From Phycisphaerales bacterium (lineage in GTDB: Bacteria; Planctomycetota; Phycisphaerae; SM23-33): a stretch of DNA of 33,918 bases. The notes beneath the pieces were generated by a model, which saw nothing but the letters and a program-made list of their open reading frames with translations, did no database searches and was not told where the DNA came from. Positions within the stretch are counted from its first letter, which is position 1. The number at the start of each line of letters is the position of its first letter. The stretch covers positions 1 through 33,918 of the forward strand of contig JABGPF010000020.1 of NCBI GenBank assembly GCA_018645065.1, read 5' to 3'. Shown one piece after another: positions 7,527-28,390 of this stretch. The translations under genes and the position numbers were made by a program.

Positions 7527-9500
7527 CTATGCAGTTGTTTCTTCTGTCGAATCGCCGCATACTTTTGACCACAATACCATCAAGACGATGGTGCAGACAA
7601 CGGCGATGCCGGTCAGGATTGACGCGATACCGGTATTTCCGTAGAGGAACATGCCTACTGCGAACAATGCGGCATATACTCCCATAGAACCGAGGACCAT
7701 GCACAAGATACCACGTGGCAGATTGACTGATTCGTGGACTGATTCAATGGGTTGGCCATCTACTTCAGCCTGCTTGTAGACTTTCCGCCAACCCGGTCCG
7801 CTTGGATTGATGAGCTTGCAGAAGCTCCTGAGCGTAGCGACGTCGGTGGGGCGGGTCAGAAGCGTGGCGGTCACCCAGCACGCAGTCGTAATTCCGACGC
7901 CTACCAGCAAGCTCTGCCATGCCTCCATTTTCCACGGGCCAAGTGCGAGAGTCACCGCGACTACAAACGATACAACCATTCCCACTACTTCGCTGATTGC
8001 GTTGACACGCCACCAGAACCACCTCAGAATGAACAGTAGTCCCGTTCCGGCGCCAATCTGCAAGAGAATCTCAAACGCCTGTAGGGCGCTAGTAAGTTGC
8101 AGGGCGAACAATGCTGCAATCACCATCATCACAACCGTGGATAACCGTCCAACCAGAACGAGTTCCTTGTCCTTGGCCTCGGGTTTGATAAATCGTTTGT
8201 AGAAGTCATTAACCACGTAGGACGAGCCCCAGTTAAGGTGTGTGGAGATCGTCGACATATACGCCGCTACAAGCGACGCAAGCACAAGTCCCAACCATCC
8301 GTGCGGTAGTGACTGAAGCATCGCCGGGTAAGCCAAATCGTGTCCGATCTTATCGTCAGGCGTATTTGGGAAAGCTTCCCTGAGGGCAGTCAGTCCGTCT
8401 TTCTGGAACTTCAGGGCCTGGAGCTTGTCTTTAGACGCTTGGTCGACCTTGGTGGGATCTGCGTTGATATCCTCCTGTATTTGAACGATTTGCGGACTAT
8501 TGAGTTCCTTAGCCGCCGCATCACGATCGCGTTGGGAGTCCATCGGAAAAACAACCAAAGAGCAAAGTGCAACGATAATCCAGGGCCAGGGCCTTAGAGC
8601 GTAGTGGGTGACGTTAAAGAACAATACCGCGCCTGTTGCGTGTTTTTCGTTCTTGGCCGCCAGCATTCGCTGGGCCAGATATCCGCCGCCGCCTGGTTCG
8701 GAACCGGGATACCACACGCTCCACCATTGGACTGCCAGCGGTACGATCAGCACACCCATCATTAGATTGAGGCTGTCGTCTGTTATCGCTCCGTTGGTGT
8801 CTTGTTTCAATTGAGGAATTATCGAAAGCTTTTCCGCCACCTGTTCGTTAGAAAACAAGTTCGTCAATGTTCCGATATCGGCATGCTGTACCGCAAAAAC
8901 CGCAGCAGCAACCGCACCGATCATAGCGACAACGAAGAGAACGCAGTCGGTCAGAAGCACGCCCTTGAAACCGCCCAGCGTTGAGAATACAACGGTTACG
9001 ATTGAAGCATACAGGATTGACTCCCACGGTGCGAGTCCCAGCATTACACTACCGATTTTGATCGCAGCCAGAGAAACTGCGCCCATAATCATGATGTTGA
9101 AGAATACCCCCAGGTACAATGCCCTGAACCCTCTCAGGAACGCCGCGGTCTTTCCACTGTACCTGATTTCGTAGAACTCGACATCAGTGAGCACTTTCGA
9201 GCGGCGCCACAACTTGGCGTAGACAAACACAGTCAACATACCGGTCAGCAGGAACGCCCACCACATCCAGTTACCGGATACACCGTCTTTTCGCACTAGA
9301 TTGGTCACGAAGTTCGGCGTGTCGGTCGAGAATGTGGTTGCGACCATCGAGAAGCCCAGAAGCCACCAGGGCATGTTGCGTCCAGAGAGGAAAAAGTCTT
9401 CCGAACTCTTACCGGCCTGTCTCGCGACGCTTAGACCTATGCCTAACGCTAACGCGAAAAAGCCAAAGATAAATGCCCAGTCAAGCATCGTCAGTTCCAT
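7527..9500 (-). CDS. Sodium:solute symporter family transporter
   Basis: A 657-residue polytopic protein of the SSF/SGLT family, importing a small organic solute with sodium. Family marks are the N-terminal region with SSEDFFLSGRNMPWW, FSTDTPNFVTNLVRKDG and TDVEFYEIRYSGK, and in the later half MSTISTHLNWGSSYVVNDFY, which corresponds to the helix carrying the Na2-site Ser/Thr residues. A soluble insert rich in charged residues (about 310-370) interrupts the membrane core. The ATG at 9500 has GAGGAG 7 bases upstream. It is the last gene of a run that includes the GHMP kinase 37 bases upstream and the NagB-LmbE fusion, so the substrate is probably a sugar or amino sugar; this is inferred from context. 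Confidence 0.92.
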   Translation of the reverse strand: MELTMLDWAFIFGFFALALGIGLSVARQAGKSSEDFFLSGRNMPWWLLGFSMVATTFSTDTPNFVTNLVRKDGVSGNWMWWAFLLTGMLTVFVYAKLWRRSKVLTDVEFYEIRYSGKTAAFLRGFRALYLGVFFNIMIMGAVSLAAIKIGSVMLGLAPWESILYASIVTVVFSTLGGFKGVLLTDCVLFVVAMIGAVAAAVFAVQHADIGTLTNLFSNEQVAEKLSIIPQLKQDTNGAITDDSLNLMMGVLIVPLAVQWWSVWYPGSEPGGGGYLAQRMLAAKNEKHATGAVLFFNVTHYALRPWPWIIVALCSLVVFPMDSQRDRDAAAKELNSPQIVQIQEDINADPTKVDQASKDKLQALKFQKDGLTALREAFPNTPDDKIGHDLAYPAMLQSLPHGWLGLVLASLVAAYMSTISTHLNWGSSYVVNDFYKRFIKPEAKDKELVLVGRLSTVVMMVIAALFALQLTSALQAFEILLQIGAGTGLLFILRWFWWRVNAISEVVGMVVSFVVAVTLALGPWKMEAWQSLLVGVGITTACWVTATLLTRPTDVATLRSFCKLINPSGPGWRKVYKQAEVDGQPIESVHESVNLPRGILCMVLGSMGVYAALFAVGMFLYGNTGIASILTGIAVVCTIVLMVLWSKVCGDSTEETTA

Positions 9501-9537
9501 AAGAGTCTCCTCAATATAGTATAGATTCGTTTAGATT

Positions 9538-10920
9538 TCAGGCCTCTTGCACGAAAAACGCCGCGGGGCCTGGGGTTGTTGCGAAAAAATTCGATGATTT
9601 GTTTTCTTCCGGAAAGGCGTTGGCGTAGCGGGCGGACCATTTGGCGGTAAAATCGTCAGCCTGGTCTTTGCGAACTAACGCCCATACCGCTCCGCCGAAT
9701 CCTGCGCCGAACGATGACGCCGCCGCAGCGCCCAACTCGCGGGCTGAACCGGCCAGGAAAACGGTCTGCGGAACCTGGCTGCCTAGTTTCGTGTCGGCCA
9801 GTTCCTGCGATTTGTCGACAAACACGCCGAACGATTCCATATCGCCCTGCACCAGCGCCGCACAAGCGGCCGGCATGATTTGGAAATTTTCCACGATGAA
9901 CTGGTCGCAACGCGTTACGAGTTCTTCCTCGGTAAGATCGCCCGATCCGTCTGCGAGCATATCAGCCAGGCGTTTCGTCGCGTCTGGGGCGCTTTCGATC
10001 ACGGCGGCTAGGTGCGGATCATCGCGTCCGGTGTCCTGGCGCCATATCTCAAGAACTGTTTGGGCGCGACGCGACATGCGATTGTATTTTTCCCTCGCCG
10101 ATCCGGTTTTTGGCGCCGATACGCCGCTGCAACCCAGCACGAAAACATACTCGTCGCTCAAGTGCAAATTCTCGTGGAGCGTCACCGGGAAGTACGAGTA
10201 TCGCCCAAGCCAACCGGGCTGAGCGTTCAGAATGGCGGTGTGGTCTTCGCTTCCGCCCCTGGTGCCCACACCGCTTAATCCGGTAAGCGAACCGAAGTCG
10301 CTGCCGTTTTCCACTGAGCCCAGATACGCCGCAAGCGAGCGGCGATCAGTAATATTTTCGCTATATTCGCTGCGTGATTCGAGATCGTTGATCTGAGAGA
10401 TCACCATAAACATCCCGATAAGCACCGCGCTTGAACTGCTCATGCCCGAGTCGGGCGGAAGGTCGCCGCAATATGCGATATGGGCGCCGCGTAGCTGTCC
10501 GGGAAAGTTTCGTGACACGCGTCGAGCAAGCGTCATCGGATAGTTCGACCAGTGCCCAACGGTCGGCTCGACATTCTCAGCCAGCGCAAATTCGCATTTA
10601 TCGTCGAGATCCGGCGCGATTGCACGAATAACCGCATCGTCGCGTCGGACGGCAAGGAAGCATATTCCACGCTGGGCGGCTGCGACCAGGCTGTGACCAC
10701 CGCAATAGTCGGTATGCTTTCCGAGCACTTCGATGCGCCCGGGCACAAATACGCCTATCGCCTCTGCATCTCGGGGCAGCCCGTCGTCGAGCAGGGCGGT
10801 TGCCCCGCGCGCGAACTGGGCGGCCTGGGCCCGTGCCGCCGACTCAGAAAGCCCGGACCCGACAAGAGATTCCACCAGTCTGGCTTCGTCCAGGTATGCC
10901 TCTATCGTCGCAGTGCTCAA
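9538..10920 (-). CDS. GHMP-family sugar kinase, galactokinase-like
   Basis: A 460-residue kinase with all three GHMP motifs. Motif 1 is GRIEVLGKHTDYCGG (61-75), the galactokinase signature with Lys68 where Glu is usual. Motif 2 is GDLPPDSGMSSSSAVL (152-167), the ATP phosphate loop. Motif 3 is SSFGAGFGGAVWAL near the C-terminus. GGSEDHTAIL places Asp226 where galactokinases have the catalytic Asp. It should phosphorylate a hexose or amino sugar, probably at C1, but the sugar cannot be read from the sequence. The start is TTG at 10920, overlapping the upstream stop as TTGA, with GGAG 8 bases before it, so translation is coupled to the NagB-LmbE gene. Confidence 0.88.
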   Translation of the reverse strand: MSTATIEAYLDEARLVESLVGSGLSESAARAQAAQFARGATALLDDGLPRDAEAIGVFVPGRIEVLGKHTDYCGGHSLVAAAQRGICFLAVRRDDAVIRAIAPDLDDKCEFALAENVEPTVGHWSNYPMTLARRVSRNFPGQLRGAHIAYCGDLPPDSGMSSSSAVLIGMFMVISQINDLESRSEYSENITDRRSLAAYLGSVENGSDFGSLTGLSGVGTRGGSEDHTAILNAQPGWLGRYSYFPVTLHENLHLSDEYVFVLGCSGVSAPKTGSAREKYNRMSRRAQTVLEIWRQDTGRDDPHLAAVIESAPDATKRLADMLADGSGDLTEEELVTRCDQFIVENFQIMPAACAALVQGDMESFGVFVDKSQELADTKLGSQVPQTVFLAGSARELGAAAASSFGAGFGGAVWALVRKDQADDFTAKWSARYANAFPEENKSSNFFATTPGPAAFFVQEA

Positions 10921-12851
10921 CGGTACTGCTCCATGTCCATGCTGACGAAAGCTTCCATCGCCTCATATTCCGCCAGGCCAAGTTTATCGTATTGTGTCGC
11001 CAGCGTGCGGTTTCGCCCCTGGGCACGCTGCCAGAACTCACGTTGATCGCGTCCGGGGAACAGGGCGCGGTCCTTCTGTGATTCATGCATGAATATGGCG
11101 TTGCGTTTGCGTGCCAGTTCGCCCGGCGAGAGCGGGACAGCCATCTCGATCTCCGCCAGGGGCCATTCCTGCCACGCTCCGCGGTACAACCATACTTCGC
11201 ATTCTGACATCCACGGTTCGTCTGAGACCTTCTCCGCCAGCGCCAGCTTCAATGCGGTAAGGCACATGCGGTGAGTTCCATGCGGGTCGGAAAGGTCGCC
11301 GGCTGCGTATATCTGGTGCGGTTTGACTTTCCGCAGAATGTCGGCAACGATCTCGATATCCGCGTCGCCAAGATCGCTCTTTCGCACTCGTCCGGTCTCG
11401 TAGAAGGGCATGTTCAGGAAGTGCGTGTGCTCCTCGGGCAGACCGCAATATTGACCGGCCGCACGCGCTTCGCTGCAGCGGATCGCGGTCTTGATCGCCA
11501 AAACTTCCTTGCTGTCAACTTGCCCGGGCTCCTTGTTGCGGAGGAAATCTCCGACCTTTTCGGCCAAGCCCGCCGAGTCGTTCTGATCGATGTTGAACTC
11601 GCGATTGACATCCAGCACGAACTCGGCGTAACGGCTCGCGTCGTGATCGAATACCGCGATTGCTCCTGAGGTCTGGAAGGCTACGTGTACTTCGTGGCCT
11701 TGATCGACAAGCCTCAGCAGCGTCCCGCCCATTGAGATAACATCGTCATCGGGGTGCGGAGAGAACACGAGGATTCGTTTGGGGAATACTTCGTCCCGCG
11801 ATCGCACGATATCGCCGGGCAGGCGTTCTTCGGCGGGCTTTCCGCCGGGCCAACCAGTTATGGTGTGCTGCAGCGTGCGGAAGACTTTCAGGCTGATTTT
11901 ATACGCCGAACCCTCGGTGGCCAGGAGTTCCTGTAGGTGGTGTTCGTTGTAATCCTCGTCGGTGAGTTTCAGGACGGGCTTGTCGACTTGATCGGCCAGC
12001 CATGTGACGGCCTTTCTCACCAGGTGATCGTCCCAGTCAACCGGTCCGAGCACCCACGGGCATTTGAATCGCGTGAGATCTTCCGCCGCCGCCTCGTCCA
12101 ACATTACCGTGGAGTCGGGGTGTTCCTGTAGGAAACTTGCTGCGACAGCTTCTGTGATTGACCCTTCTATGGCCCGGGCGACGATAGGGGCCTTGTTCTC
12201 TCCGAACGCCATCATGATAATGCGTTTGGCGTTCATGGCGCTTCCGACGCCCATCGTGATCGCTCGGTGAGGCACGTTTTCCAATCCGAAGAAATCGCTC
12301 GCAGCGTCCAGGCGGGTCAGGTAGTCAAGGGCGATCAGCCGGGTTACGCTGTCTCGCGACGATCCCGGTTCGTTGAAGCCAATGTGTCCGGTTCGACCGA
12401 TACCGAGCAGTTGCAGATCGATCCCACCGGCGTCTTCGATCGCCTTCTCGTAGTTCACGCAGTAGTCATGAACCTCTTTTTCGTCGAGCGTACCGTCCGG
12501 TATGTTTATGTTTTCCGGTTTGATGTCTATGTGATCAAACAGGTATTCGGACATGAAGAGCTTGTAGCTCTGCAGCGCCCGCGGGCACATCGGGAAATAT
12601 TCATCGAGATTGAACGTAATTACGTTTTGGAAGGACAGCCCGTCCTGGCGATGCATTCGGACCAGTTCGTCGTACACGCCCACCGGTGTTGCTCCGGTGG
12701 CCAGGCCCAGCACACACATTTCGCCTTTTTGTGCTTTGGTTTTGATAAGTTCGGCGATCTCATTGGCAACGGCGGCACTAACGTCGGCCGGCGCCTCATA
12801 AACGTGTGTTTTGATCCGCTCTGGGTTTGTTGATGTCTGATGCTCGGTCAT
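10917..12851 (-). CDS. nagB: NagB-like deaminase fused to a LmbE/PIG-L deacetylase domain
   Basis: A 644-residue two-domain protein. Residues about 1-260 are a glucosamine-6-phosphate deaminase fold: LGLATGATPVGVYDEL (phosphate loop), FNLDEYFPM (catalytic Asp region) and GIGRTGHIGFNEPGSS (His and Glu of the active site, but Thr where E. coli NagB has Asp141). After a linker, the second domain has the PIG-L motif SPHPDDDVISMGG and a later DPHGTHRM supplying the other zinc-ligand His, as in GlcNAc deacetylases. The same fusion is known from Bacteroidetes proteins of about 660 residues. One polypeptide could remove the acetyl group and then the amino group of an amino sugar phosphate; this is inferred. 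An upstream ATG at 12905 is also open. It is followed by the kinase and symporter genes. Confidence 0.92.
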   Translation of the reverse strand: MTEHQTSTNPERIKTHVYEAPADVSAAVANEIAELIKTKAQKGEMCVLGLATGATPVGVYDELVRMHRQDGLSFQNVITFNLDEYFPMCPRALQSYKLFMSEYLFDHIDIKPENINIPDGTLDEKEVHDYCVNYEKAIEDAGGIDLQLLGIGRTGHIGFNEPGSSRDSVTRLIALDYLTRLDAASDFFGLENVPHRAITMGVGSAMNAKRIIMMAFGENKAPIVARAIEGSITEAVAASFLQEHPDSTVMLDEAAAEDLTRFKCPWVLGPVDWDDHLVRKAVTWLADQVDKPVLKLTDEDYNEHHLQELLATEGSAYKISLKVFRTLQHTITGWPGGKPAEERLPGDIVRSRDEVFPKRILVFSPHPDDDVISMGGTLLRLVDQGHEVHVAFQTSGAIAVFDHDASRYAEFVLDVNREFNIDQNDSAGLAEKVGDFLRNKEPGQVDSKEVLAIKTAIRCSEARAAGQYCGLPEEHTHFLNMPFYETGRVRKSDLGDADIEIVADILRKVKPHQIYAAGDLSDPHGTHRMCLTALKLALAEKVSDEPWMSECEVWLYRGAWQEWPLAEIEMAVPLSPGELARKRNAIFMHESQKDRALFPGRDQREFWQRAQGRNRTLATQYDKLGLAEYEAMEAFVSMDMEQYR

Positions 12852-12992
12852 GAGTCTGCTTGGTCCTGTAGGTAGGATGTTCGGTGCGCCTGTACATGGG
12901 CGCATTCTGAAGGGACCCCATTTTGGCGTGTCAGGCGGTAAATTTCAACTATGTGGTGAAGTTATCGCATTTTTTTTGCGAAATAAGCGTCA

Positions 12993-14935: not shown

Positions 14936-17900
14936 ATGAGCATTAAGTATTTCTCATCGCTTAAACGTAACATGTCCGTATTGTCTTTTTTACTCGTCGC
15001 AGGCCTGCTTGCTGCGATGCTGGTCTCGCCGGCGACAGCGGCACGGAAGGCAAAAACCGCCAAACCCAAAGTCGCCAAGCCCAAGCGTAAAGCTAAGAGA
15101 AAGCCCAAGGCTCCGCTCCCGCCCGGTGGTCCGGACATTACCGTTGAATCGCTGGAGCGGGCGATCGTCGACCTGTCCAAAACTTACCCGAAAAAATATG
15201 CCAAGGGTCCGTCGTACATGGCCCGCCTGACGAAGCTTAAAGCTACGCCCGATGCAGCAAAGCTCCAGGCGTTGGCGTATGAGGCTTTGCTGGCCAACCC
15301 GGTGCTCGACTTCGATAAGCTTCTGCTGATCAAGCGTGCCTCGGGCAACAAGTTCCTCGTTAACAACTGGCTCAGCAACACCGCTCTGAGAACAACAGGG
15401 CACACCAACGAGATCGCGATCCTTTCGCCGATCAGCCCCGAAGGTAAGCTCACCACGATCTACACGCCGGAAAAAGGCGCGTACGTAGGCGATCTGGACT
15501 TGCACTTTGACGGTACGAAAATGCTTTTCTCGATGCCCAAAGACGGTAAGCACTGGCAGATTTTCGAAATCGGAGCCGACGGAAAGAACCTCAGGCAAGT
15601 CACACCCGCCGATCACAGCGACGTAAGCAGCTACGATCCGTGCTACCTTCCTGACGGGAACATTATGTACACCTCGACGGCCAACATGCAGGGCGTACCG
15701 TGCATCGGTGGTAAGAGTCACGTCGCCAACATGGCGTTGTATAACCCGACTACCAAAAAGACGCGAATGCTCTGCTTTGAGCAGGATCACGACTGGTGCC
15801 CGACGCTAATGCCCAACGGACGCGTAATGTACCTTCGCTGGGAATACACCGATACGGCGCACTACTTCACGCGAGTCATGATGTCGATGAACCCCGACGG
15901 GACCAACCAGGTTGCTTACTACGGAAGCAATTCGTACTGGCCCAACTCGCTGTTCTTCGCTCGCCCGGTGCCCGGTACGGCAACTAAGTTTGTTGGTATC
16001 GTAGGCGGACATCACGGTATCGCACGCGAAGGCGAAATGGTCATTTTCGACACGGCCAAGGGCACCCACGAGGCCGACGGCGTTGTCCAACGCATCTCGG
16101 ACTACGGTAAACCGGTAAAGCCCGTGATCGCTGATCGCCTGGTCGATCGCAGTTGGCCTCGGTTCATTCATCCGCTCCCGCTGGATGAAAATTACTACTT
16201 CGCGTCGCGGCCGATCAAACGCGGCAGCAAGGAGTGGGGCATTTTCCTGGTCGATGTATGGGACAATATGCTGCTGATCAAAACGATCCCGGGCAGTGCG
16301 CTCGTCGAGCCGCTTCCGCTTCGCCCGACTAAGGCTCCGCCTGTAGTGCCCAGCAAGCTGAACCCCGATATGAAAGACGCCATCCTGTACGTGCAGAGCG
16401 TTTACAACGGACCTGGCCTGAAAGGCGTACCCAAGGGCACCGTCAAGAAAATGCGCGTATTCACCTATACATACGGTTATCGCGGTGTGGGCGGACACAC
16501 ATGCTTCGGAACCGAAAGCGGATGGGACGCCAAACGAATACTCGGTACGGTGCCTGTCGAGGCCGACGGTTCGGCGATGTTCCACGTGCCGGCAAACACG
16601 CCGATCTCACTCCAGCCGCTGGATGAAAACGGCGCCTCGCTGCAGCTTATGCGAAGCTGGCTTACCGCGATGCCCGGCGAGGCTCTCTCGTGCGTAGGTT
16701 GTCACGAAACGTCTAAAGAGGCGCCCTCGCCGACACGAACACTTGCCGGCCTGAAGGCTCCGGCGAAGATCACGCCATGGAACGGTCCGGCGCGCGGATT
16801 CGGATATCGGCGTGAAGTTCAGCCCGTGATTGAGAAGTACTGCGGCGGATGCCATGACGGCTCGAAGAAAACCGCACCTAACTTCATGGCCAGGCGGGGC
16901 GGTTACGATACCCTCCAGCTTTATGTCCGCCGCCCAGGCCCCGAGAGCGACTATCACATGTTCCGCCCGATGGAGTATCACTCAACGACCAGCGAACTTA
17001 TGCAGATGCTCGTCAAGGGCCATAACAATGTTAAGATCCCCGCTACCGATATGAACCGGCTGCGAACCTGGATCGATCTGAATATTCCGTATCACGCTTC
17101 GTGGACCGAATCACGCGGTGAGAAGAAAGTTACCGCTATTTCCAAACGATATCGCGAACTCCAGAAGCAGTACGCTTATGTTGACGTTGATCCGGAATTT
17201 GTCGGCGGACCGATCCCGACGGGCATTAAACCGGTCATGCCGGCCAAGCTTGCGCTGCCGACAATCACTGTGCCCACCGTTACAGGGTGGCCTTTCGACG
17301 CCAAAGCCGCTGCTGTCAAACAGGCCGGCGCCGGCGCCAAAACTACGCAGACAATCGAACTGGCCAAGGGCGTGACGATGGATATGAGTTTGATACCGGC
17401 CGGTGAGTTTGTAATGGGCGACGCCAGCGGCGACGCTGACGAACGCAACGTTGCGGCTGTGAAGATCGCCAAACCGTTTTGGATGGGCACCTGCGAAGTC
17501 ACCAACGCACAGTACGCCGCGTTCAACGCCGAGCATGATAGTCGCTACATCGATAGCGCCGGTAAGGACCAGAGCAGCCCGGGCTTCCCGGCCAATCAAC
17601 CCAATCAGCCCGTTATCCGCATAAGCTGGGCCGAGGCCAATGCGTTCTGCGCCTGGTTGAGCAAGAAGAGCGGTAAGAAAATCTCACTGCCCAGCGAAGC
17701 TCAGTGGGAATGGGCCTGCCGCGCCGGAACAAACACGGCCATGTCGTTCGGAGCAGTTGACAGCGACTACAGCAAGTTCGCAAACTTCGCCGACGCCACC
17801 GCCGCCAAGAGCCTGGGCACCGGTAGAGGGCGCCTCACGCCGTTCATCACTGACAAAACGTTCAACGATGGTCAGCGCATCGTTTGTAACGTCGCACAAT

Positions 17901-18106
17901 ACAGCGCCAACGCCTGGGGCCTGAAGGACATGCACGGAAACGTGGCCGAGTGGACCTGCTCGACGTTCAGCGGTGAGACTAAAGTCGTCCGCGGCGGATC
18001 GTGGCATGATCGGGCTAAGCGCGGGACCTCGTCGTATCGCCTGCCTTACCCGACGCACCAGAAAGTATATAATGTTGGTTTCCGCGTAATCTGCGAAGCG
18101 AAATAA
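14936..18106 (+). CDS. Exported dihaem protein: HZS-alpha-like middle domain plus FGE-fold domain (copy 1)
   Basis: A 1056-residue exported protein. A signal peptide (to about residue 36, ATA|AR) is followed by a Lys/Pro-rich linker. A propeller-like region (about 125-460) contains repeated PDG/FDG turns and SSYDPCYLPDGN. A region from about 467 to 600 resembles the hydrazine synthase alpha-subunit middle domain of anammox bacteria and ends in the haem motif C586-VG-C589-H590. A second haem motif is C636-GG-C639-H640. From about 815 to the end lies an FGE/SUMF1 fold (LIPAGEFVMGD, WACRAGT, GLKDMHGNVAEW, RGGSW). Where active FGEs have two copper-binding cysteines it has Asp1025 and Gly1030, so formylglycine formation is unlikely. 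AAGGA at 14923-14927 supports the start. Role unknown; an extracytoplasmic redox or binding function is inferred. Confidence 0.88.
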   Translation: MSIKYFSSLKRNMSVLSFLLVAGLLAAMLVSPATAARKAKTAKPKVAKPKRKAKRKPKAPLPPGGPDITVESLERAIVDLSKTYPKKYAKGPSYMARLTKLKATPDAAKLQALAYEALLANPVLDFDKLLLIKRASGNKFLVNNWLSNTALRTTGHTNEIAILSPISPEGKLTTIYTPEKGAYVGDLDLHFDGTKMLFSMPKDGKHWQIFEIGADGKNLRQVTPADHSDVSSYDPCYLPDGNIMYTSTANMQGVPCIGGKSHVANMALYNPTTKKTRMLCFEQDHDWCPTLMPNGRVMYLRWEYTDTAHYFTRVMMSMNPDGTNQVAYYGSNSYWPNSLFFARPVPGTATKFVGIVGGHHGIAREGEMVIFDTAKGTHEADGVVQRISDYGKPVKPVIADRLVDRSWPRFIHPLPLDENYYFASRPIKRGSKEWGIFLVDVWDNMLLIKTIPGSALVEPLPLRPTKAPPVVPSKLNPDMKDAILYVQSVYNGPGLKGVPKGTVKKMRVFTYTYGYRGVGGHTCFGTESGWDAKRILGTVPVEADGSAMFHVPANTPISLQPLDENGASLQLMRSWLTAMPGEALSCVGCHETSKEAPSPTRTLAGLKAPAKITPWNGPARGFGYRREVQPVIEKYCGGCHDGSKKTAPNFMARRGGYDTLQLYVRRPGPESDYHMFRPMEYHSTTSELMQMLVKGHNNVKIPATDMNRLRTWIDLNIPYHASWTESRGEKKVTAISKRYRELQKQYAYVDVDPEFVGGPIPTGIKPVMPAKLALPTITVPTVTGWPFDAKAAAVKQAGAGAKTTQTIELAKGVTMDMSLIPAGEFVMGDASGDADERNVAAVKIAKPFWMGTCEVTNAQYAAFNAEHDSRYIDSAGKDQSSPGFPANQPNQPVIRISWAEANAFCAWLSKKSGKKISLPSEAQWEWACRAGTNTAMSFGAVDSDYSKFANFADATAAKSLGTGRGRLTPFITDKTFNDGQRIVCNVAQYSANAWGLKDMHGNVAEWTCSTFSGETKVVRGGSWHDRAKRGTSSYRLPYPTHQKVYNVGFRVICEAK

Positions 18107-18125
18107 CCTGACATAAATACAATAA

Positions 18126-18170
18126 ACAAAGGCCTCTTACGTTTGTACACTACTGCGTAGAGGCCTTTGT
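18126..18170 (+). terminator. Hairpin between the tandem paralogues (terminator or attenuator)
   Basis: ACAAAGGCCTCT (18126-18137) pairs perfectly with its complement (18159-18170), extended by TACG/CGTA inside. The right arm ends TTTGTTG and continues into TGCATATATT, which is a weak U tract. It could reduce, rather than abolish, read-through from copy 1 into copy 2, or protect the 3' end of the copy 1 message. Confidence 0.55.
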
Positions 18171-18239
18171 TGCATATATTGGCCTCAAGCTACATCAGCA
18201 AGATAATTAATCGAATCGATAGAAGTAAGGAACCCCAGA

Positions 18240-21200
18240 ATGAGTATTAAGCGTTTTTCGATGTGTAAATCGGCGTTGCTGGCGACCTTGACGATAGGCT
18301 TGCTGGTTATGTCGGCTCCGACGGCGAAAGCAGCAAACGCCAAAAAGCTGGTCAAGCTTGGCCCCTGGTACACCAGCGTGGAAATCAAGTGCAGCCTTAA
18401 GAAGGCCGAGTTCGCCGAGAGAAACGTAGATCTGAAAGCCAAAACCGCTGGCGGCAAGGCCCTCTGGACAGCGATCCCCAAATTCAAGGACGGAGCAACG
18501 CTTAGGCTTGGAATGTCCGGCGCCAGTTCGAAATATTTCTACCGCACGATAACCGCAAAAGCTGACATCACGGTAACAGGCGGTTTCGGTAGTGACGACG
18601 GTTGCGCCATCTGGTTGAACGGTAAGCAGGTTTTCCTGCACGAACGCGTGGTGGGCGCCGATTCAAAGCCCGTAAAGCTCGCGTTGAAGAAGGGCGAGAA
18701 CCAACTGCTGATCAAAGTTCACAATAGTGGCGGAGGTTCGAGCGTCTACTTCCGCTGCCATGAAATCACCAAGGCCAGCCGTCCTCGACGCAATAATCGA
18801 TCGAGTGCACCCAGGCACAGCGGACCGGACGTTACAGTCGAATCGCTCGAACGGGCAATCGCAGACCTGTCCAAAAACTACCCCAAGAAATACGCCAAGG
18901 GCGCCGCGTTCATGGCCCGCCTGAACAAGCTCAAAGAAACACCCGACGAAGCAAAGCTCAAAGCCCTGGCATACGAAGCACTGCTCGCCAACCCGATCCT
19001 CGACTTCGATAAGCTCCTGCTAATCAAGCGGTCATCGAAGAACAAGTTCCTGGTTAACAACTGGCTCAGCAACACCGCACTGCCGAAAACCGGACACACC
19101 AACGAGATCGCCTATCTTTCGCCGATCAGCCCCGAAGGCAAAATTACCTCGGTCTACAAACCCGAAAAGGGCGAATATGTCGGCGATGTCGATCTGCATT
19201 TTGACGGCACGAAAATGCTCTTTTCCATGCCGAAAGATGGAAAAGACTGGCAGATATTTGAAGTCGGCGCCGACGGTAAGAATCTCAAACAGGTCACGCC
19301 TTCGGATCACACAGACGTAAGCAGCTACGATCCGTGCTACCTGCCGGACGGCAACGTAATGTACACATCGACTGCAAACATGCAGGGCGTTCCCTGCATC
19401 GGCGGCGGGTCACACGTAGCCAACATGTCGCTGTACAACCCGACTACCAAGAAAACGCGAATGCTCGCCTTCGAGCAGGACCACGACTGGTGCCCGACGC
19501 TCATGCCCAACGGACGCATAATGTACCTCCGCTGGGAATACCCCGATACCGCACACTACTTCACGCGTATCATGATGACGATGAACCCCGATGGAACCAA
19601 CCAGTTGAGCTACTACGGCAGCAATTCGTACTGGCCTAACTCGCTGTTCTTCGCTCGTCCGATCCCGGGCAGCTCGTCGAAATTTGTCGGTATCGTCGGC
19701 GGCCACCACGGTCTGCCGCGCATGGGCGAAATGATCGTCTTCGATACGTCCAAAGGCACCCACGAGGCCGATGGCGTCGTGCAACGAATCTCCAACTACG
19801 GTAAACCCGTCGAGCCGATCATCCGCGACGGACTGGTCAACGGAAGCTGGCCGCTGTTCATCCACCCGTTCCCGCTGGACGAAAAATACTACTTCGCCTC
19901 ACGCCCGATCACTCGCGGCAGCAAGGACTGGGGCATCTTCCTGGTCGACGTATGGGACAACATGCTGCTGATCAAAACCCTGCCCGGTGAATCGCTGTGC
20001 GAGCCGGTACCGTTCCGCGCAACCAAAATGCCGCCGGCGATCCCCAGCAAACTTAACCCCGATATGAAAGACGCCGTGCTGTACGTCCAGAGCGTCTACA
20101 ACGGACCTGGCCTCAAAGGCGTACCCAAGGGCACCGTCAAGAAAATGCGCGTGTTCACCTATACGTACGGCTATCGCGGCATGGGCGGACACTCACAGTT
20201 CGGTATCGAAAGCGGCTGGGACGCCAAGCGAATACTCGGCACGGTTCCCGTCGAGGCCGACGGTTCGGCGATGTTCCGCGTACCGGCAAACACGCCGATC
20301 TCGCTGCAGCCGCTGGACGAAAACGGAGCCGCACTGCAGTTGATGCAGAGCTGGCTGACCGCAATGCCCGGCGAGGCACTATCGTGCGTAGGCTGCCATG
20401 AAGCCTCACGCGAGGCGCCGTCGCCCGTGATAACAATGGCCGGCCGCAAACCTCCCAAAAACATCACACCCTGGAACGGACCGGCCCGCGGTTTCGGCTT
20501 CCGTCGCGAAGTTCAGCCCGTACTCGATAAGTACTGCGTTGGCTGTCACGATGGCAAAACCAAGGGCGCCGCAGACTTCGCCACGCGGAGCAGCAAGTTC
20601 TCCGAAGGCTACAAGTTCTTGCAACTTTACGTCCGCCGCCCAGGTCCCGAGAGCGACTACCACCTGTTCCAGCCGATGGAATATCACTCATCGACCAGCG
20701 AGTTGGTGCAGATGCTCCGCAAGGGCCACAATAACGTTAAACTGCCCGTCGCGGCGATGAACCGCCTTCAGACGTGGCACGATCTGAACATCCCGTACCA
20801 CGCATCCTGGACGGAAATACGCGGTACGAAAAGGGTTGAAAATATCGCCAAACGTTATCGCGCACTGGCCAAACAGTACGCCTACATAGACGCCGATCCT
20901 GAGTTCGTCGGCGACCCGGCGCCCGAGGGCATCAAGCCGATCATGCCCGCCAAGCTAGAACTACCGAAGATCACCGTCCCGAAAGTAACCGGGTGGCCCT
21001 TCGATACAGCCACCGCCACGGCCAAGCAAACCGCCGCCGGCAGCGAGACCACCAAGAGCATCGAACTGGCTGAAGGCGTGATGATGGAGTTGAAACTTAT
21101 CCCCGCTGGCGAGTTCGTAATGGGCGACGCCACAGGCGACATCGACGAGCGCAATGTCGCGGCGGTTAAAATCGCCAAGCCGTTCTGGATCGGAACGCTT

Positions 21201-21854
21201 GAAGTAACCAACGCACAGTACGCCGCGTTCAACCCCAAGCACGATTCGCGTTACATTGACAAGGCCGGTAAGGACCACGGCGACGCGGGTCTCCCGGCCA
21301 ACAGGCCCACTCAACCCGTTATCCGCATAAGCTGGGCTGAGGCCAACGAGTTCTGCGCATGGTTGAGTAAGAAGAGCGGTCAGAAGGTCGAACTGCCGAC
21401 CGAAGCGCAGTGGGAATGGGCCTGCCGCGCAGGTACAAACACCGCCATGTCGTTCGGCGCCGTCGATAGCGACTTCGGTAAGTTCGCCAACTTCGCTGAC
21501 GCATCGGCAGCCAAACGCCAGGGTCTGGGCGGCGGAAACATCACGCCGTTCGTCGCCAATAAGACATTCACCGACGGCCAGATCATCGTCGGCGAAGTAG
21601 GTAAGTACACCCCCAACGCATGGGGTCTGAAGGACATGCACGGTAACGTAGCCGAGTGGACGCGTTCGGCGTTCAAGGCGTATCCGTACAAGGACGACGC
21701 ACGCAACGCGGCCGATGCCAAGGGCACAAAAACGGTTCGCGGCGGATCGTGGCATGACCGTCCCAAGCGTTCGACATCATCGTACCGCCTGCCTTTCCAG
21801 GCCCACCAGAAGGTCTACAACGTAGGCTTCCGTGTAATCATCGAGGCGAAATAA
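18240..21854 (+). CDS. Exported dihaem protein: added beta-sandwich, HZS-alpha-like and FGE-fold domains (copy 2)
   Basis: A 1204-residue paralogue of the preceding gene; from GPDVTVESLERAI onward the two align along their whole length with most residues identical by eye. The leader and first codons (TAAGGA, MSIK) are also alike, showing tandem duplication. It differs by an extra domain of about 140 residues after the signal peptide (about 35-180), with DDGCAIWLNGKQVF and KKGENQLLIKVHN, typical of PA14-like or carbohydrate-binding beta-sandwiches. Haem motifs are C716-VG-C719-H720 and C766-VG-C769-H770. The FGE fold (about 948-1202) has Asp1173 and Ser1178 in place of the copper cysteines. 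Six bases separate its stop from the beta-helix gene, whose Shine-Dalgarno overlaps the stop region. Confidence 0.88.
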   Translation: MSIKRFSMCKSALLATLTIGLLVMSAPTAKAANAKKLVKLGPWYTSVEIKCSLKKAEFAERNVDLKAKTAGGKALWTAIPKFKDGATLRLGMSGASSKYFYRTITAKADITVTGGFGSDDGCAIWLNGKQVFLHERVVGADSKPVKLALKKGENQLLIKVHNSGGGSSVYFRCHEITKASRPRRNNRSSAPRHSGPDVTVESLERAIADLSKNYPKKYAKGAAFMARLNKLKETPDEAKLKALAYEALLANPILDFDKLLLIKRSSKNKFLVNNWLSNTALPKTGHTNEIAYLSPISPEGKITSVYKPEKGEYVGDVDLHFDGTKMLFSMPKDGKDWQIFEVGADGKNLKQVTPSDHTDVSSYDPCYLPDGNVMYTSTANMQGVPCIGGGSHVANMSLYNPTTKKTRMLAFEQDHDWCPTLMPNGRIMYLRWEYPDTAHYFTRIMMTMNPDGTNQLSYYGSNSYWPNSLFFARPIPGSSSKFVGIVGGHHGLPRMGEMIVFDTSKGTHEADGVVQRISNYGKPVEPIIRDGLVNGSWPLFIHPFPLDEKYYFASRPITRGSKDWGIFLVDVWDNMLLIKTLPGESLCEPVPFRATKMPPAIPSKLNPDMKDAVLYVQSVYNGPGLKGVPKGTVKKMRVFTYTYGYRGMGGHSQFGIESGWDAKRILGTVPVEADGSAMFRVPANTPISLQPLDENGAALQLMQSWLTAMPGEALSCVGCHEASREAPSPVITMAGRKPPKNITPWNGPARGFGFRREVQPVLDKYCVGCHDGKTKGAADFATRSSKFSEGYKFLQLYVRRPGPESDYHLFQPMEYHSSTSELVQMLRKGHNNVKLPVAAMNRLQTWHDLNIPYHASWTEIRGTKRVENIAKRYRALAKQYAYIDADPEFVGDPAPEGIKPIMPAKLELPKITVPKVTGWPFDTATATAKQTAAGSETTKSIELAEGVMMELKLIPAGEFVMGDATGDIDERNVAAVKIAKPFWIGTLEVTNAQYAAFNPKHDSRYIDKAGKDHGDAGLPANRPTQPVIRISWAEANEFCAWLSKKSGQKVELPTEAQWEWACRAGTNTAMSFGAVDSDFGKFANFADASAAKRQGLGGGNITPFVANKTFTDGQIIVGEVGKYTPNAWGLKDMHGNVAEWTRSAFKAYPYKDDARNAADAKGTKTVRGGSWHDRPKRSTSSYRLPFQAHQKVYNVGFRVIIEAK

Positions 21855-21860
21855 GGCACT

Positions 21861-23975
21861 ATGAAAAATACAGCGGCGTACCCAAGCGTTCGATCTAATC
21901 CTGCGTTACTTTGTGCGTTGCTGTCTATCGCATTGCTGTGCCCCGCATCCCGGGCCGCGGCGACTACGATATACGTCAGTCCAAACGGTAACGATAACTG
22001 GTCCGGACGCCTCGAACAGGCAAACGCCCAGAAAACCGACGGGCCACTGGCGTCACTAGTCGCAGCCCGGGATGCTTTACGTAAACTCGACGCCGATTCG
22101 CCCAGGACGGTTATCGTAGCGGCGGGGCGGTACGAGATGAGCGAAACTCTCGTCCTGACGCCGCAGGACAGCGGGACCGAAAAATGCCCGGTAGTTTACC
22201 GGGCTGCCGACGGTGCCAAACCGGTGTTCTCAGGCGGGCGGAGAATTACAGGCTTCAAACGCGGACCAGACGGAATATGGCGCAGCAAGATATCGCCCAA
22301 GATGCGGTTTGAACAACTGTTCGTAAACGGCAAGCGTGCGACCCGTGCCAAAACGCCGAATGATTCCTGGATCTCATTCCTTGACGTGAAGGAAGCGAAA
22401 CTCAAGGCGCCCAAGGGTCGCGCCACTCACCGCCAAACAGTGAAGCTCCGCGCCGAAGACATCAAACCGCTTTTGAAGATGAAACCGGCTGAGCTTGGCG
22501 ACGTGAGCATGATGATCTTCCACAAGTGGGACAACACCCGCAGATTTGTCGGGGCAATTGACCCAGCGGCTTCGTTGATCATCACCGACGGTAAGAATAT
22601 GAAATCGTGGAACAGTTGGCGGAAAGGCACGCGGTTCCATTTGGAGAACTATATCGGCGCCCTGGACGCACCTGGAGAATGGTTCCTGGCTCGCGACGGA
22701 GTGCTGGCGTATAAACCGCTGGATCAACAGGATATGTCGATCGCTGAAGTTGTGGCGCCCGTGCTTGAAAAGTTTATCATTATCGCGGGCAAGCCAAGCG
22801 ACAAGAAATTCGTGCAACACGTGACAATCAAGGGCCTGGGCTTCCATCACGCGCAATACATAACACCGCCAGGCGGGTTCGAAGCCGCCCAAGCCGCATC
22901 GCCCATCGACGCAACAGTAATCGCAGACGGCGCCCAAAACGTATCGATCGAAGACTGCGAAATCGCGCACGTCGGAACCTATGCGGTATGGTTCCGTAAG
23001 GGATGCACGAACTCGGCGATCCGTCGAACGTTCATCCATGATATTGGCGCCGGTGGAATCCGTATCGGTGAAAACGCCATCGCGAAAAAACTCGCCGAGC
23101 GTACGAGCCGCATTACCGCAGATAACAATATCATCCATTCGCTAGGGCATGTTTTCCCCTGTGCCGTCGGCGTCTGGATCGGCCAGAGCGGTGATAACAG
23201 CGTTACTCACAACGATATCGGACGCCTGTATTACACGGGCATATCCGTTGGGTGGCGGTGGGGGTACGCCGAGTCGATCGCAAAACGCAACAAAATCAAC
23301 TTTAATCATATCCACCATATTGGGTATGGGGTGCTCAGCGATATGGGCGGGGTCTACACGCTCGGACCAAGCCAGGGCACCACGGTTAACAACAACCGCA
23401 TTCATGATGTTTGGTCATATTCCTACGGTGGGTGGGGCCTATACACAGACGAGGGCAGCACTGGGATCGAGATGGCTAATAATCTCGTCTACAACGTCAA
23501 GGACGGATCGTTCCACCAGCATTACGGGAAAGAGAACGTCATCCGAAACAATATTCTGGCGTTCAGTGAACTGTGCCAACTCCGGGCCACCCGCGTGGAA
23601 AAGCACCTGTCGTTCACGATCAAAAACAACATTATATTCTACCGCACGCCGAAGCTCCTGCACGGGCCATGGACGAAACTAAACGTAAAAATGGCCAACA
23701 ATCTCTACTTCAATTGCTCAGGCAAACCGGTAACTTTCGCCGGGATGAACCTGAAAGACTGGCAGGCGAAGGGGCATGACGCCGGCTCGATAATCGCAGA
23801 CCCGCAATTCGTGGCGCCGGACAAATTCGACTTCACGTTCAAAAAGGGCTCCTCGCAGGCCGCTGCAATCGGTTTTAAACCGTTTGACTATACAAAAGCT
23901 GGCGTATATGGAGCTTCTGACTGGGTGAAATTGGCCAAAAAACTCCCGACTCCCCCAGTAATCCCCAAAAAATAA
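21861..23975 (+). CDS. Exported right-handed parallel beta-helix protein
   Basis: A 704-residue protein with a signal peptide (hydrophobic 16-30, cleavage near SRA|AA). It opens with [14 protein letters not shown] and [15 protein letters not shown], the usual N-terminal cap of planctomycete and Bacteroidetes beta-helix enzymes. An immunoglobulin-like insert (about 115-290) follows, then beta-helix rungs rich in Asn and Gly ([54 protein letters not shown]). Relatives act on polysaccharides (the architecture is seen in GH141, GH120 and several lyase families), but I cannot assign a family or catalytic residues. It starts six bases after copy 2 of the dihaem proteins, so it is almost certainly co-transcribed and should act in the same extracytoplasmic system. 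Confidence 0.85.
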
Positions 23976-24458: not shown

Positions 24459-25421
24459 ATGGGTAAGCTAGAATTATACCCGTATAAATTCACTCCGATT
24501 TATATCGAGAAAATATGGGGCGGGCGGAACCTGGAAAGGCTCTTCGCTCGCCAGTTGCCTTCCGACGCGCCGATAGGTGAGAGTTGGGAGCTGGCCGATC
24601 TGGACGCAGGGACAAGCCTGGTGGCCAACGGACCGATGAGCGGCATGTCCCTGACCGACCTGACGCGCCAACTAGGCGCCGAACTTCTCGGACGAGCAAA
24701 ACCGCTGGACAATGGGCGTTTTCCGCTACTGCTGAAACTGCTCGACGCCAACGACATACTCTCGCTACAGGTCCATCCCGACGCCAAAGCCTCAGAGGAA
24801 ATACCAGGTGCTGCACTGAAAACAGAATGCTGGTACGTCCTCGACAGTCGCGACGGATACATCTACAAGGGACTGGCCCCTGATGTTAGCTCCGAACAAT
24901 TCAGGGTGGGTATCGAAAACGATACCGTTGAGAAACTCGTCAAGCGATACGACCTGGAGGCGGGGGACTTCCATTACCTACCGGCAGGCACGGTCCACGC
25001 CGTCGGACCGGGACTCGTCGTCGCCGAAGTGCAAACCCCCTCGGACACCACCTATCGAGTGACCGATTGGGGACGAGGACGTGAAATACACATAGAACGA
25101 TCCATGCAGTGTATCCATTTCAGCCCGACCAGCGACGCCTCGCCCGGAGCCGATGGAGACACGCTGCTGGTCACCGAGTTCTTCACCGTTGCACGCAGAA
25201 CCCTTAAACCCAACGATTCATACAACACGCCTAATGGCCGATGTGTCGCGATAATGATGCTCGGCGGCGATGCGGAACTGCATCACACAGGGCCTGTCGA
25301 ACCGACCACCATCGTCGCTGCGGGCGACACGATTGTCCTGCCGGCGGCTTTGACAAACGCATCGGTCCGCAGTGCAAACGGATGCTGCTTCCTGGAAATA
25401 ACGCTGCCCGATACCGAATAA
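24459..25421 (+). CDS. manA: Mannose-6-phosphate isomerase, class I
   Basis: Zn enzyme interconverting mannose 6-phosphate and fructose 6-phosphate, linking mannose use and GDP-mannose supply to glycolysis. The 320-residue product is the short bacterial form. Likely zinc ligands are Gln104 and His106 (LSLQVHPDA), Glu123 (KTECWYVL) and His180 (GTVHAVGPG); the early IWGGRNL and IGESWEL segments are also typical. The ATG has AAGGA at 24446-24450, 8 bases upstream. The pseudouridine synthase gene follows after 39 bases and is probably co-transcribed. Another sugar isomerase activity of the same cupin family is possible but less likely. Confidence 0.93.
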   Translation: MGKLELYPYKFTPIYIEKIWGGRNLERLFARQLPSDAPIGESWELADLDAGTSLVANGPMSGMSLTDLTRQLGAELLGRAKPLDNGRFPLLLKLLDANDILSLQVHPDAKASEEIPGAALKTECWYVLDSRDGYIYKGLAPDVSSEQFRVGIENDTVEKLVKRYDLEAGDFHYLPAGTVHAVGPGLVVAEVQTPSDTTYRVTDWGRGREIHIERSMQCIHFSPTSDASPGADGDTLLVTEFFTVARRTLKPNDSYNTPNGRCVAIMMLGGDAELHHTGPVEPTTIVAAGDTIVLPAALTNASVRSANGCCFLEITLPDTE

Positions 25422-26755: not shown

Positions 26756-28390
26756 TTATTTCTGCCTGCGTTTGCGTCTGGCCAGCAGGGCCGAAGCTCC
26801 GGCCGCTAGAAGGATCATACTCGCCGGTTCGGGAGCATGGCCTACCTGTGCAATGTAAATTCGGTTATCGGGGAAGTATATCTTCGTTCCGTTATCGTCG
26901 AAGTAGAGATTCTGGCTTGCGTCCACGTTAATCGTGATAGCAATCGGATTGGTCTGCTGACCGGTAAGCGGATCGGTGGCGCCCCAGTCGTAGAAGATAA
27001 TTTCGGAGATTCCAACCAGAGCGTCCTTGTCGAAACTGGCCTTGTCGAAATCGATTCGTATTACCTGCTGCTCAGCCCAATGCGTATTGAGCCTCTGATC
27101 GCCAGGGAAGTACTGACTGTAGTCGTCGTATCCGCTCAGACCAGCGATCACGCCGCCGTCTGTGCTTCCTTCGATCCACTGGGCGCCGTCATTCAGATTT
27201 CCGCCAGCAGAACCGTCCCGCTGCATGAACGCATCTTCGTAGAAGTACAGGTTCTGGCCAAGACCGTCCGTCACGCCAGCGTTTAGCAACGCCTGGGGTG
27301 AGTCCGCGGCGTGGATCGGCGCGAGTCCGTTGAGCTCGGGAGTCGCACCGTTAGTGTAAGCGTTCACTTCGCGAACATCCATCGAGGCAACAACAGCGTC
27401 GAACTGGCTTTCAGTCGCCAATGTAGTAGGAGTGGCGGTGTTGAAGTCGCCGTCGACGAGGTACTTGCCTCCGATGGGACCAGGCGTGCCGCCATTGAGA
27501 GCGGCTGTGCCACCGTTAAAACCGTCATAGACATACCCGTCGTTACCACCATAAGTGAATCCATCGGCACGGGTCGGGTCACTAATGTATGAGTCATCGC
27601 GATAGTCAGGGACCAGCATCATGTTATCATTTTGTCTGGCTCGCAGGTTCATGTCATTGCTCTGTGCTACCTGCGGATCGGATCGGCTGATGGTTGAGGA
27701 TCCAGCTCCAAAATTAATGTTGTTATCTCGACCTCCGGGGGCGTTATCGCTTTTACCGGCATGGACAAAGATGTCCATCTTAACGTTGCCCGTGTTTGTT
27801 CCGAGATCAACAGCTCCCTTGCTGTCCACAACTGTCTGGCCAGTCAACCAGCCCATTGCGTAACCGTTGCGTTCATAATTGCGTTGCATAAGAGTTGCGG
27901 GCGGAGTACCACCATCGTTTGTGAACTCCGAAACGTAATCGGCGTTGTCCAGATGACTATAGGTCATGTAGAAACCGATTGTACCGGCCTTTTGGGGCAG
28001 GCCCTGGACCTTATTGGTGGTATAGTTGGCCTGGTGATCAATCGGAGTCGAAGGATATTCGTCACCAGCGGCGGGGGGCGCGCCAATCTCGTGGCCGTGT
28101 TGAGTACCCGCAGACTCAGGGGTCCACCAGTTCTGGAATTCCCCAATTCGAGTATCGCCTGGATTCAGAATACCGTCGTTAACGGTATCGGAGAAAATAT
28201 GCCACGTCCGAATAGCATCGGGTCGCATATCGCGAACATTGGGATTGGAGCGGATTCCGGCACTGACAATGCTGTTGGATTCCCTCCCATTTGGCTTTAT
28301 GTGCAGATTAGCCCCAGACAGGACACTCCCCGAAACTAACACACAACCCGCTAGTACAGTCAAAAATGTACGCTTTACATTACGACTCAT
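26756..28390 (-). CDS. PEP-CTERM-anchored exported protein
   Basis: A 544-residue secreted protein. The N-terminus is a signal peptide (TFLTVLAGCVLVSGSVLSG). The C-terminus is a complete PEP-CTERM sorting signal: the PEPAS motif, a hydrophobic stretch (MILLAAGASALLA) and the basic end RRKRRQK, recognised by an exosortase in exopolysaccharide-producing bacteria. The region between is Gly/Asp/Asn-rich, mostly beta and low in cysteine, and I recognise no enzymatic motif; surface or matrix attachment is likely. The ATG has GGAGGAGG (28397-28404) 6 bases upstream. It is monocistronic, with its own promoter, a long leader and a terminator. No exosortase gene is in the window. Confidence 0.88.
   Translation of the reverse strand: MSRNVKRTFLTVLAGCVLVSGSVLSGANLHIKPNGRESNSIVSAGIRSNPNVRDMRPDAIRTWHIFSDTVNDGILNPGDTRIGEFQNWWTPESAGTQHGHEIGAPPAAGDEYPSTPIDHQANYTTNKVQGLPQKAGTIGFYMTYSHLDNADYVSEFTNDGGTPPATLMQRNYERNGYAMGWLTGQTVVDSKGAVDLGTNTGNVKMDIFVHAGKSDNAPGGRDNNINFGAGSSTISRSDPQVAQSNDMNLRARQNDNMMLVPDYRDDSYISDPTRADGFTYGGNDGYVYDGFNGGTAALNGGTPGPIGGKYLVDGDFNTATPTTLATESQFDAVVASMDVREVNAYTNGATPELNGLAPIHAADSPQALLNAGVTDGLGQNLYFYEDAFMQRDGSAGGNLNDGAQWIEGSTDGGVIAGLSGYDDYSQYFPGDQRLNTHWAEQQVIRIDFDKASFDKDALVGISEIIFYDWGATDPLTGQQTNPIAITINVDASQNLYFDDNGTKIYFPDNRIYIAQVGHAPEPASMILLAAGASALLARRKRRQK

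Follow-up and report, generated by a model that had tools for sequence, protein, structure and literature searches.

The stretch of DNA analysed here (the window; 33,918 nucleotides, contig JABGPF010000020.1 of the Phycisphaerales assembly GCA_018645065.1) carries three consecutive plus-strand genes, two of which encode exported proteins combining the fold of the hydrazine synthase (HZS) α-subunit with two CxxCH haem sites and a C-terminal FGE fold, and the third an exported right-handed β-helix protein. The genome of origin, G000, is a fragmented metagenome-assembled genome of an ocean bacterium (91.7% complete) in which contig ends hide neighbours; its two genus-mate species are referred to as G001 and G002.

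The first gene (14936–18106) encodes copy 1, of 1056 amino acids. Its β-propeller spans approximately residues 125–465 (15308–16330), as judged from the strands of the AlphaFold model and from a profile match to the HZS-α structure 5c2v_A that starts at residue 25, and is homologous to the N-terminal propeller of HZS-α. It is followed by the HZS_alpha middle domain (PF18582; residues 501–591, 16436–16708), which contains the haem I site CVGCH (residues 586–590, 16691–16705), where the residue at position +4 is not the tyrosine of the anammox proteins, and then by the haem II site CGGCH (residues 636–640, 16841–16855). His696 (17021–17023) is equivalent to His772, the distal haem II ligand of HZS-α, according to a column alignment with four anammox α-chains, and is invariant in alignment A5. 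The chain closes with an FGE-fold domain (17381–18091), assigned by Pfam, Foldseek and alignment and lacking the FGE copper cysteines. Copy 2 (18240–21854, 1204 amino acids) has the same architecture, with the HZS_alpha middle domain at 20130–20402, CVGCH motifs at both haem I (residues 716–720, 20385–20399) and haem II (residues 766–770, 20535–20549), and the FGE-fold domain at 21096–21839, and it carries in addition an N-terminal jelly-roll module (residues 39–178, 18354–18773) resembling PA14 and glycoside hydrolase (GH) accessory domains. An alignment of the two products over 1030 positions shows 78% identity, and a signal-peptide-like N-terminal segment on each predicts export. Pfam matches to HZS_alpha (5e-32 for copy 1 and 1e-33 for copy 2) and to FGE-sulfatase at the C-terminus (7e-39 and 2e-42) lie far over the curated cut-offs, so that the architecture claimed for both chains in an earlier note made from the letters alone is confirmed by domain matches and motif positions, far beyond chance. 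The β-helix protein (21861–23975, 704 amino acids), which that note had likewise placed six bases past gene 2, is recognized by Pfam Beta_helix (1.6e-16).

Relationship to the hydrazine synthase α-subunit

A profile built from the cores of 84 paralogues encoded in the same genome matches 5c2v_A with E = 5.6e-60, in two segments corresponding to the propeller plus middle domain (chain residues 25–561) and to the C-terminal haem-II domain (639–767). Consistent with that, the AlphaFold2 model of copy 1, made from 78 aligned sequences (pLDDT 89.7, pTM 0.87), has 5c2v_A as its top Foldseek match in the PDB (E = 1.6e-24 over 792 columns; TM-score, by target length, 0.59); PvdO and FGE come next, for the C-terminal part. 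The similarity to HZS-α on which the earlier note had made its idea depend is thus strong both by profile and by structure, although the note, which had limited the likeness to the middle domain, understated a real homology that covers all three domains, i.e. the propeller, the haem-I domain and the haem-II domain.

The active-site residues were compared with four α-chains of approximately 806–832 amino acids, taken from genomes with one or two copies each and assumed to be anammox proteins; all four have the CxxCHxxxY motif, and in three of the four a β-γ homologue adjoins. Both CxxCH motifs are kept in all 84 own-genome cores, and the position of the distal ligand His772 is a histidine in 4/4 anammox-type chains, in 74/84 own cores and in 13/14 cores from other genomes, which rules out for these proteins the loss of His772 published for the clade I homologues of a 2025 survey (PMC12758564). 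The two residues characteristic of hydrazine synthesis are, however, not retained: Tyr591, the unusual iron ligand of haem α-I (the tyrosine of CxxCHxxxY), is a tyrosine in all four anammox-type chains and Asn, Gly, Ser, Lys or another residue in the family, and the zinc ligand Cys303, present in three of the four, is replaced by Asn, Tyr, Asp and others. That survey likewise describes other homologues from which Tyr591 and Cys303 have been lost. Since both are absent, the two copies are not regarded as hydrazine synthases. A different set of residues is near-invariant in the own-genome cores, namely Cys256 (83/84), Trp302 (84/84) and Tyr304 (83/84), accompanied by His359 (73/84) and His360 (69/84), and none of the five is conserved among the four anammox-type chains, which argues for a function that is maintained and different. 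These alignments show that the haem core has been retained, that the hydrazine-synthase specialization is missing, and that another residue set is under constraint.

The C-terminal FGE part resembles PvdO (5hha) most closely in the PDB, with 1y1h also matched by Foldseek. The cysteines that bind copper in FGE, in the human enzyme the pair Cys336/Cys341, occur neither in the aligned C-terminal part of the two copies nor in that of the relatives inspected, and because of this the window proteins are not FGEs; for the same reason, a role of the domain as activator of the sulfatases of this genome (126 matches) was rejected. The FGE domain is found on 18 of the 96 own-genome paralogues scanned, and in a FastTree phylogeny the members carrying it form one clade (support 100), within which the sole unlabelled member is truncated, indicating that the fusion was gained once.

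The jelly roll of copy 2 is predicted with a pLDDT of 91.5, and its best structural match is the sugar-binding domain PA14, albeit a weak one (E = 4.5e-4), with glycosidase accessory domains also resembled; a carbohydrate-binding-like domain had been suspected there by the earlier note. The jelly roll occurs in 33 of 78 rows of the alignment, as well as in both copies of G002 and in the single copy of G001, and because the orthologues in both sister species keep it, copy 1 of the window is considered to have lost it. In this part of copy 1 (14936–15150), a lysine/proline-rich linker is left.

Size of the family and its genomic company

The two copies belong to an unusually large family. A PF18582 profile search of the window's own genome (5.85 Mb) returned 107 matches, which take up approximately 308 kb (5%) of the assembly, a count that rules out an ordinary small gene set; the two genus-mate species have 85 and 121 matches, and most other genomes of the taxonomic family have none. 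Genomes with any match make up 59/298 of a class sample and 77/392 of a phylum sample, and first-look candidate numbers peaked at 63 outside the genus versus 104–154 inside it. The paralogues are diverged (median pairwise identity 30%, median identity to the nearest paralogue 56%), which marks them as old. When 84,980 species genomes were scanned, relatives of copy 1 turned up in 373 stretches, and those kept include full-length proteins of approximately 45–52% identity in Planctomycetota, Verrucomicrobiota (including Kiritimatiellae and Lentisphaerae), Hydrogenedentota, Armatimonadota and Sumerlaeota. Whether the anammox α-subunit branches within the family is not settled by the FastTree phylogeny. 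Two further family proteins, at L045:3663–7706 and L083:4705–8532, are fused to HEAT repeats and have one CxxCH each.

It was also noted earlier that no other HZS subunit accompanies the pair. This holds within the window, where no β- or γ-subunit gene was found, but not for the genome, which has approximately six HZS β-γ homologues alongside its 107 α-type genes; one of these matches both HZS β (E = 1.9e-26) and HZS γ (E = 5.2e-26). At loci of FGE-type relatives, a β-γ homologue, in each case a propeller-plus-CCP/MauG protein, lies within the retrieved region in 16 of 79 cases. An HZS-like α-β-γ set therefore occurs in other bacteria, and the great majority of the α-type proteins described here have no co-encoded β-γ partner. 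At one locus of G002 (L197, contig C102, 1033–6826, minus strand), three β-γ homologues stand in tandem, a duplication without an adjacent α gene on the same stretch; the nearest α gene there (9072–11594) is of the non-FGE type.

The β-helix protein resembles by phmmer the GH141 enzyme BT_1002 (5mqp, E = 7.5e-33) and the structure 9rx2 (E = 1e-45), and its GH141_M domain scores 21.2 of the 27 bits required, the orthologue at locus L112 being just over the cut-off. The arrangement of one or two α-type genes followed by the β-helix gene shows synteny across the three genus genomes (G001 has one α gene, not two), which extends to the flanking NagB-PIG-L, M50, ManA, pseudouridine synthase and PEP-CTERM genes. 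No clear β-helix homologue was found at the loci of copy 1 relatives outside the genus, and the protein was accordingly rejected as a general partner. The conservation of neighbours required by the earlier note thus holds within the genus and ends at its border: the α-α-β-helix trio is a genus-level arrangement rather than a widespread system, and the conserved unit is the FGE-fused HZS-α-like protein itself, sometimes with an HZS β-γ homologue.

Around the trio, a divergent amino-sugar block on the minus strand (7527–12905) comprises a NagB-PIG-L fusion, a GHMP kinase and an SSF transporter. Synteny within the genus includes the first two of these genes, and ManA lies after the β-helix gene, at 24459. 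A PEP-CTERM sorting signal marks the exported protein encoded at 26756–28390 (minus strand), which is kept beside this locus in the sister genomes.

The wider context of the paralogues points to glycans, as far as statistics resting on retrieved regions and domain search lists allow. The accessory domains on the 96 own-genome paralogues are F5/8 type C (14), NPCBM (5), LamG (4), CBM_4_9 (1) and 3-keto-disaccharide hydrolase-like (2), and the two proteins with the last of these (PF06439 type) offer a lead to 3-keto-glycoside chemistry. Of 83 close same-strand neighbours, 11 are sulfatases, more than of any other family, and the gluconolactonase-like, esterase and sugar isomerase-like families come next with two to three genes each. 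The 126 sulfatase matches correspond to approximately 117 genes, of which 22 are at most 4 kb away from a family member versus 7.8 expected, with a nominal binomial P of ~1e-5 that is optimistic since sulfatases cluster together. The glycan link proposed at the outset is supported by this enrichment, by the F5/8, NPCBM and LamG modules and by the GH141-like partner. With respect to electron transfer, each of the three genus genomes has cytochrome c assembly genes, no haem-copper oxidase (COX1) was found in any of them, and cytochrome bd was detected only in G002, a genome with 6% contamination. A 904-amino-acid five-haem protein is encoded near an HZS-α-like gene at L053:5869–8583 (minus strand).

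Possible functions and their weighing

Taken together, the evidence supports an exported dihaem family with the HZS-α fold that has diversified in these bacteria and is linked at least partly to glycan breakdown, its main role probably lying with complex carbohydrates and not with nitrogen. For the two window copies we tentatively favour, at a little less than an even chance, the reading that they are periplasmic or secreted dihaem c-type redox proteins with the whole HZS-α fold acting on another substrate, where we infer both the substrate and the redox direction. In such a model, a glycan or a fragment of it would be held by the accessory domains (jelly roll and FGE fold) and the propeller face, and haem I would oxidize or reduce it within a pocket for which the family-specific Cys256, Trp302, Tyr304 and His359/His360 are candidates. 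The bis-His haem II would relay electrons to or from a periplasmic cytochrome pool, while the GH141-like β-helix enzyme would cleave, or supply, the modified glycan, and each of the many paralogues might be devoted to another polymer, in parallel with the sulfatases of these genomes. It has to be noted that several observations weigh against this reading. The AlphaFold model holds no haems, and the haem-pocket residues are candidates; the sulfatase enrichment is approximately threefold, in a binomial test that ignores sulfatase self-clustering, and most family members have no sulfatase or GH gene next door; F5/8 and jelly-roll domains mediate protein contacts too; and the β-helix linkage is limited to one genus in which the whole neighbourhood is syntenic, so that it could reflect simple inheritance.

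Some of the same features can be read differently. Were the copies non-catalytic electron-transfer or attachment proteins, the haems would only relay electrons and the modules would tether the protein to glycans or to polymers of the cell surface for extracellular electron transfer. This would agree with the two haem sites, the second of which has a conserved candidate for bis-His ligation, with the many copies that bear modules of a binding type, with an FGE fold whose catalytic cysteines are missing, and with the need for another electron sink in three genomes where haem-copper oxidase was not found. We consider this reading rather unlikely, because the near-invariant residues outside the haem motifs suggest an active pocket, just two haems approximately 50 residues apart do not make a multihaem wire, and the gene context is rich in hydrolases. 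A peroxidase, or a haem-dependent modifier of proteins or of phenolic or organosulfur polymers whose FGE fold recognizes the substrate, is less probable still; it would fit the resemblance of the FGE part to PvdO and the CCP/MauG affiliation of the partner β-γ homologues. Members of that superfamily modify proteins or reduce peroxide. Most paralogues, however, keep the dihaem core without an FGE domain, their accessory modules are mostly of sugar-binding types, and no conserved protein substrate lies nearby. Nitrogen chemistry, which the earlier note had not expected, was rejected as the main function of the window genes given the absence of the anammox-specific Tyr591 and Cys303. It would require an HZS-like α-β-γ complex acting on nitric oxide, hydroxylamine or ammonium with its β-γ subunit encoded in trans, for which the β-γ genes beside some FGE-type relatives and elsewhere in the genome might speak, as might the proposal that Phycisphaerae with hzsABC-like genes are possible anammox bacteria (PMC10732223). 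We regard it as very improbable, since α-type genes outnumber β-γ genes 107 to approximately six, with none of the latter in the window, and since hydrazine synthesis was rejected for comparable homologues on the grounds of the same residues (PMC12758564).

The reading of the copies as redox proteins acting on glycans, if true, would mean a haem-based attack on polysaccharides in genomes without haem-copper oxidase. A broader extrapolation, which we put forward as doubtful, is that HZS-α-like proteins are haem enzymes of a very large and so far overlooked family for the oxidative or reductive breakdown of polysaccharides in anaerobic Planctomycetes–Verrucomicrobia–Chlamydiae (PVC) bacteria, with more than 100 isoforms per genome, and that hydrazine synthase is an offshoot recruited to nitrogen chemistry. 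Hydrazine synthase has so far been treated as almost without homologues outside anammox bacteria. A genus whose genomes have 85–121 α-type genes, for the most part without β-γ and in many cases linked to sugar-binding modules or sulfatases, provides a candidate ancestral function, as well as many natural variants with which to map what enabled hydrazine synthesis. The results also speak against taking hzsA-like genes, even beside β-γ genes, as anammox markers.

Comparison with known systems

The GH141 family, represented by BT_1002 (5mqp), is the closest known counterpart of the β-helix protein, which resembles it in sequence and in its β-helix and may be called GH141-like. With the FGE-fold proteins SUMF1, PvdO, GldK/PorK and EgtB the window copies share the C-terminal fold, and they differ in lacking the FGE copper cysteines and in scoring far under the PvdO and GldK cut-offs. 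The PSCyt/PSD proteins described for PVC bacteria (PMC5615132) offer a parallel in being numerous c-type cytochromes of unknown function with carbohydrate-binding-module-like modules that occur near sulfatases. They are, however, a separate protein family: no PSCyt/PSD Pfam domain was found on the window proteins or among the families listed for the 96 paralogues, PSCyt2 has only two matches per genome in the three genus genomes, and the PSCyt genes reached their highest numbers in genomes of the upper lake layer, in contrast to a genus without COX1.

Hydrazine synthase α itself (Kuenenia 5c2v; PF18582/NF052339) shares with the window proteins the six-bladed propeller, the haem-I middle domain, the haem-II C-terminal domain, both CxxCH motifs and the distal histidine of haem II. 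The window proteins differ from it in the loss of Tyr591 and Cys303, in the fused FGE and jelly-roll modules, in having no β-γ gene beside them and approximately 107 α copies in the genome, and in a score of 53.6 bits against the NF052339 cut-off of 800. Comparable are the non-anammox HZS-α homologues with co-encoded β-γ (clades I–IV of PMC12758564 and the hzs-like genes of PMC10732223), which have the α fold and lack key HZS residues, and which are matched here by the FGE-type relatives with a β-γ gene nearby; such α homologues have been suggested in the literature to form an alternative-substrate family. No mention of an FGE fusion or of a glycan context was found in the descriptions of these two studies, and literature searches on the combination of FGE, cytochrome c and Phycisphaerae and on "HzsA-related" returned nothing. 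In clade I, His772 is reported absent, whereas it is kept here, and the few α-subunit homologues reported in PMC12758564 stand against 85–121 per genome in this genus with approximately six β-γ genes, which makes the genus a strong counter-example to the scarcity of α homologues described there.

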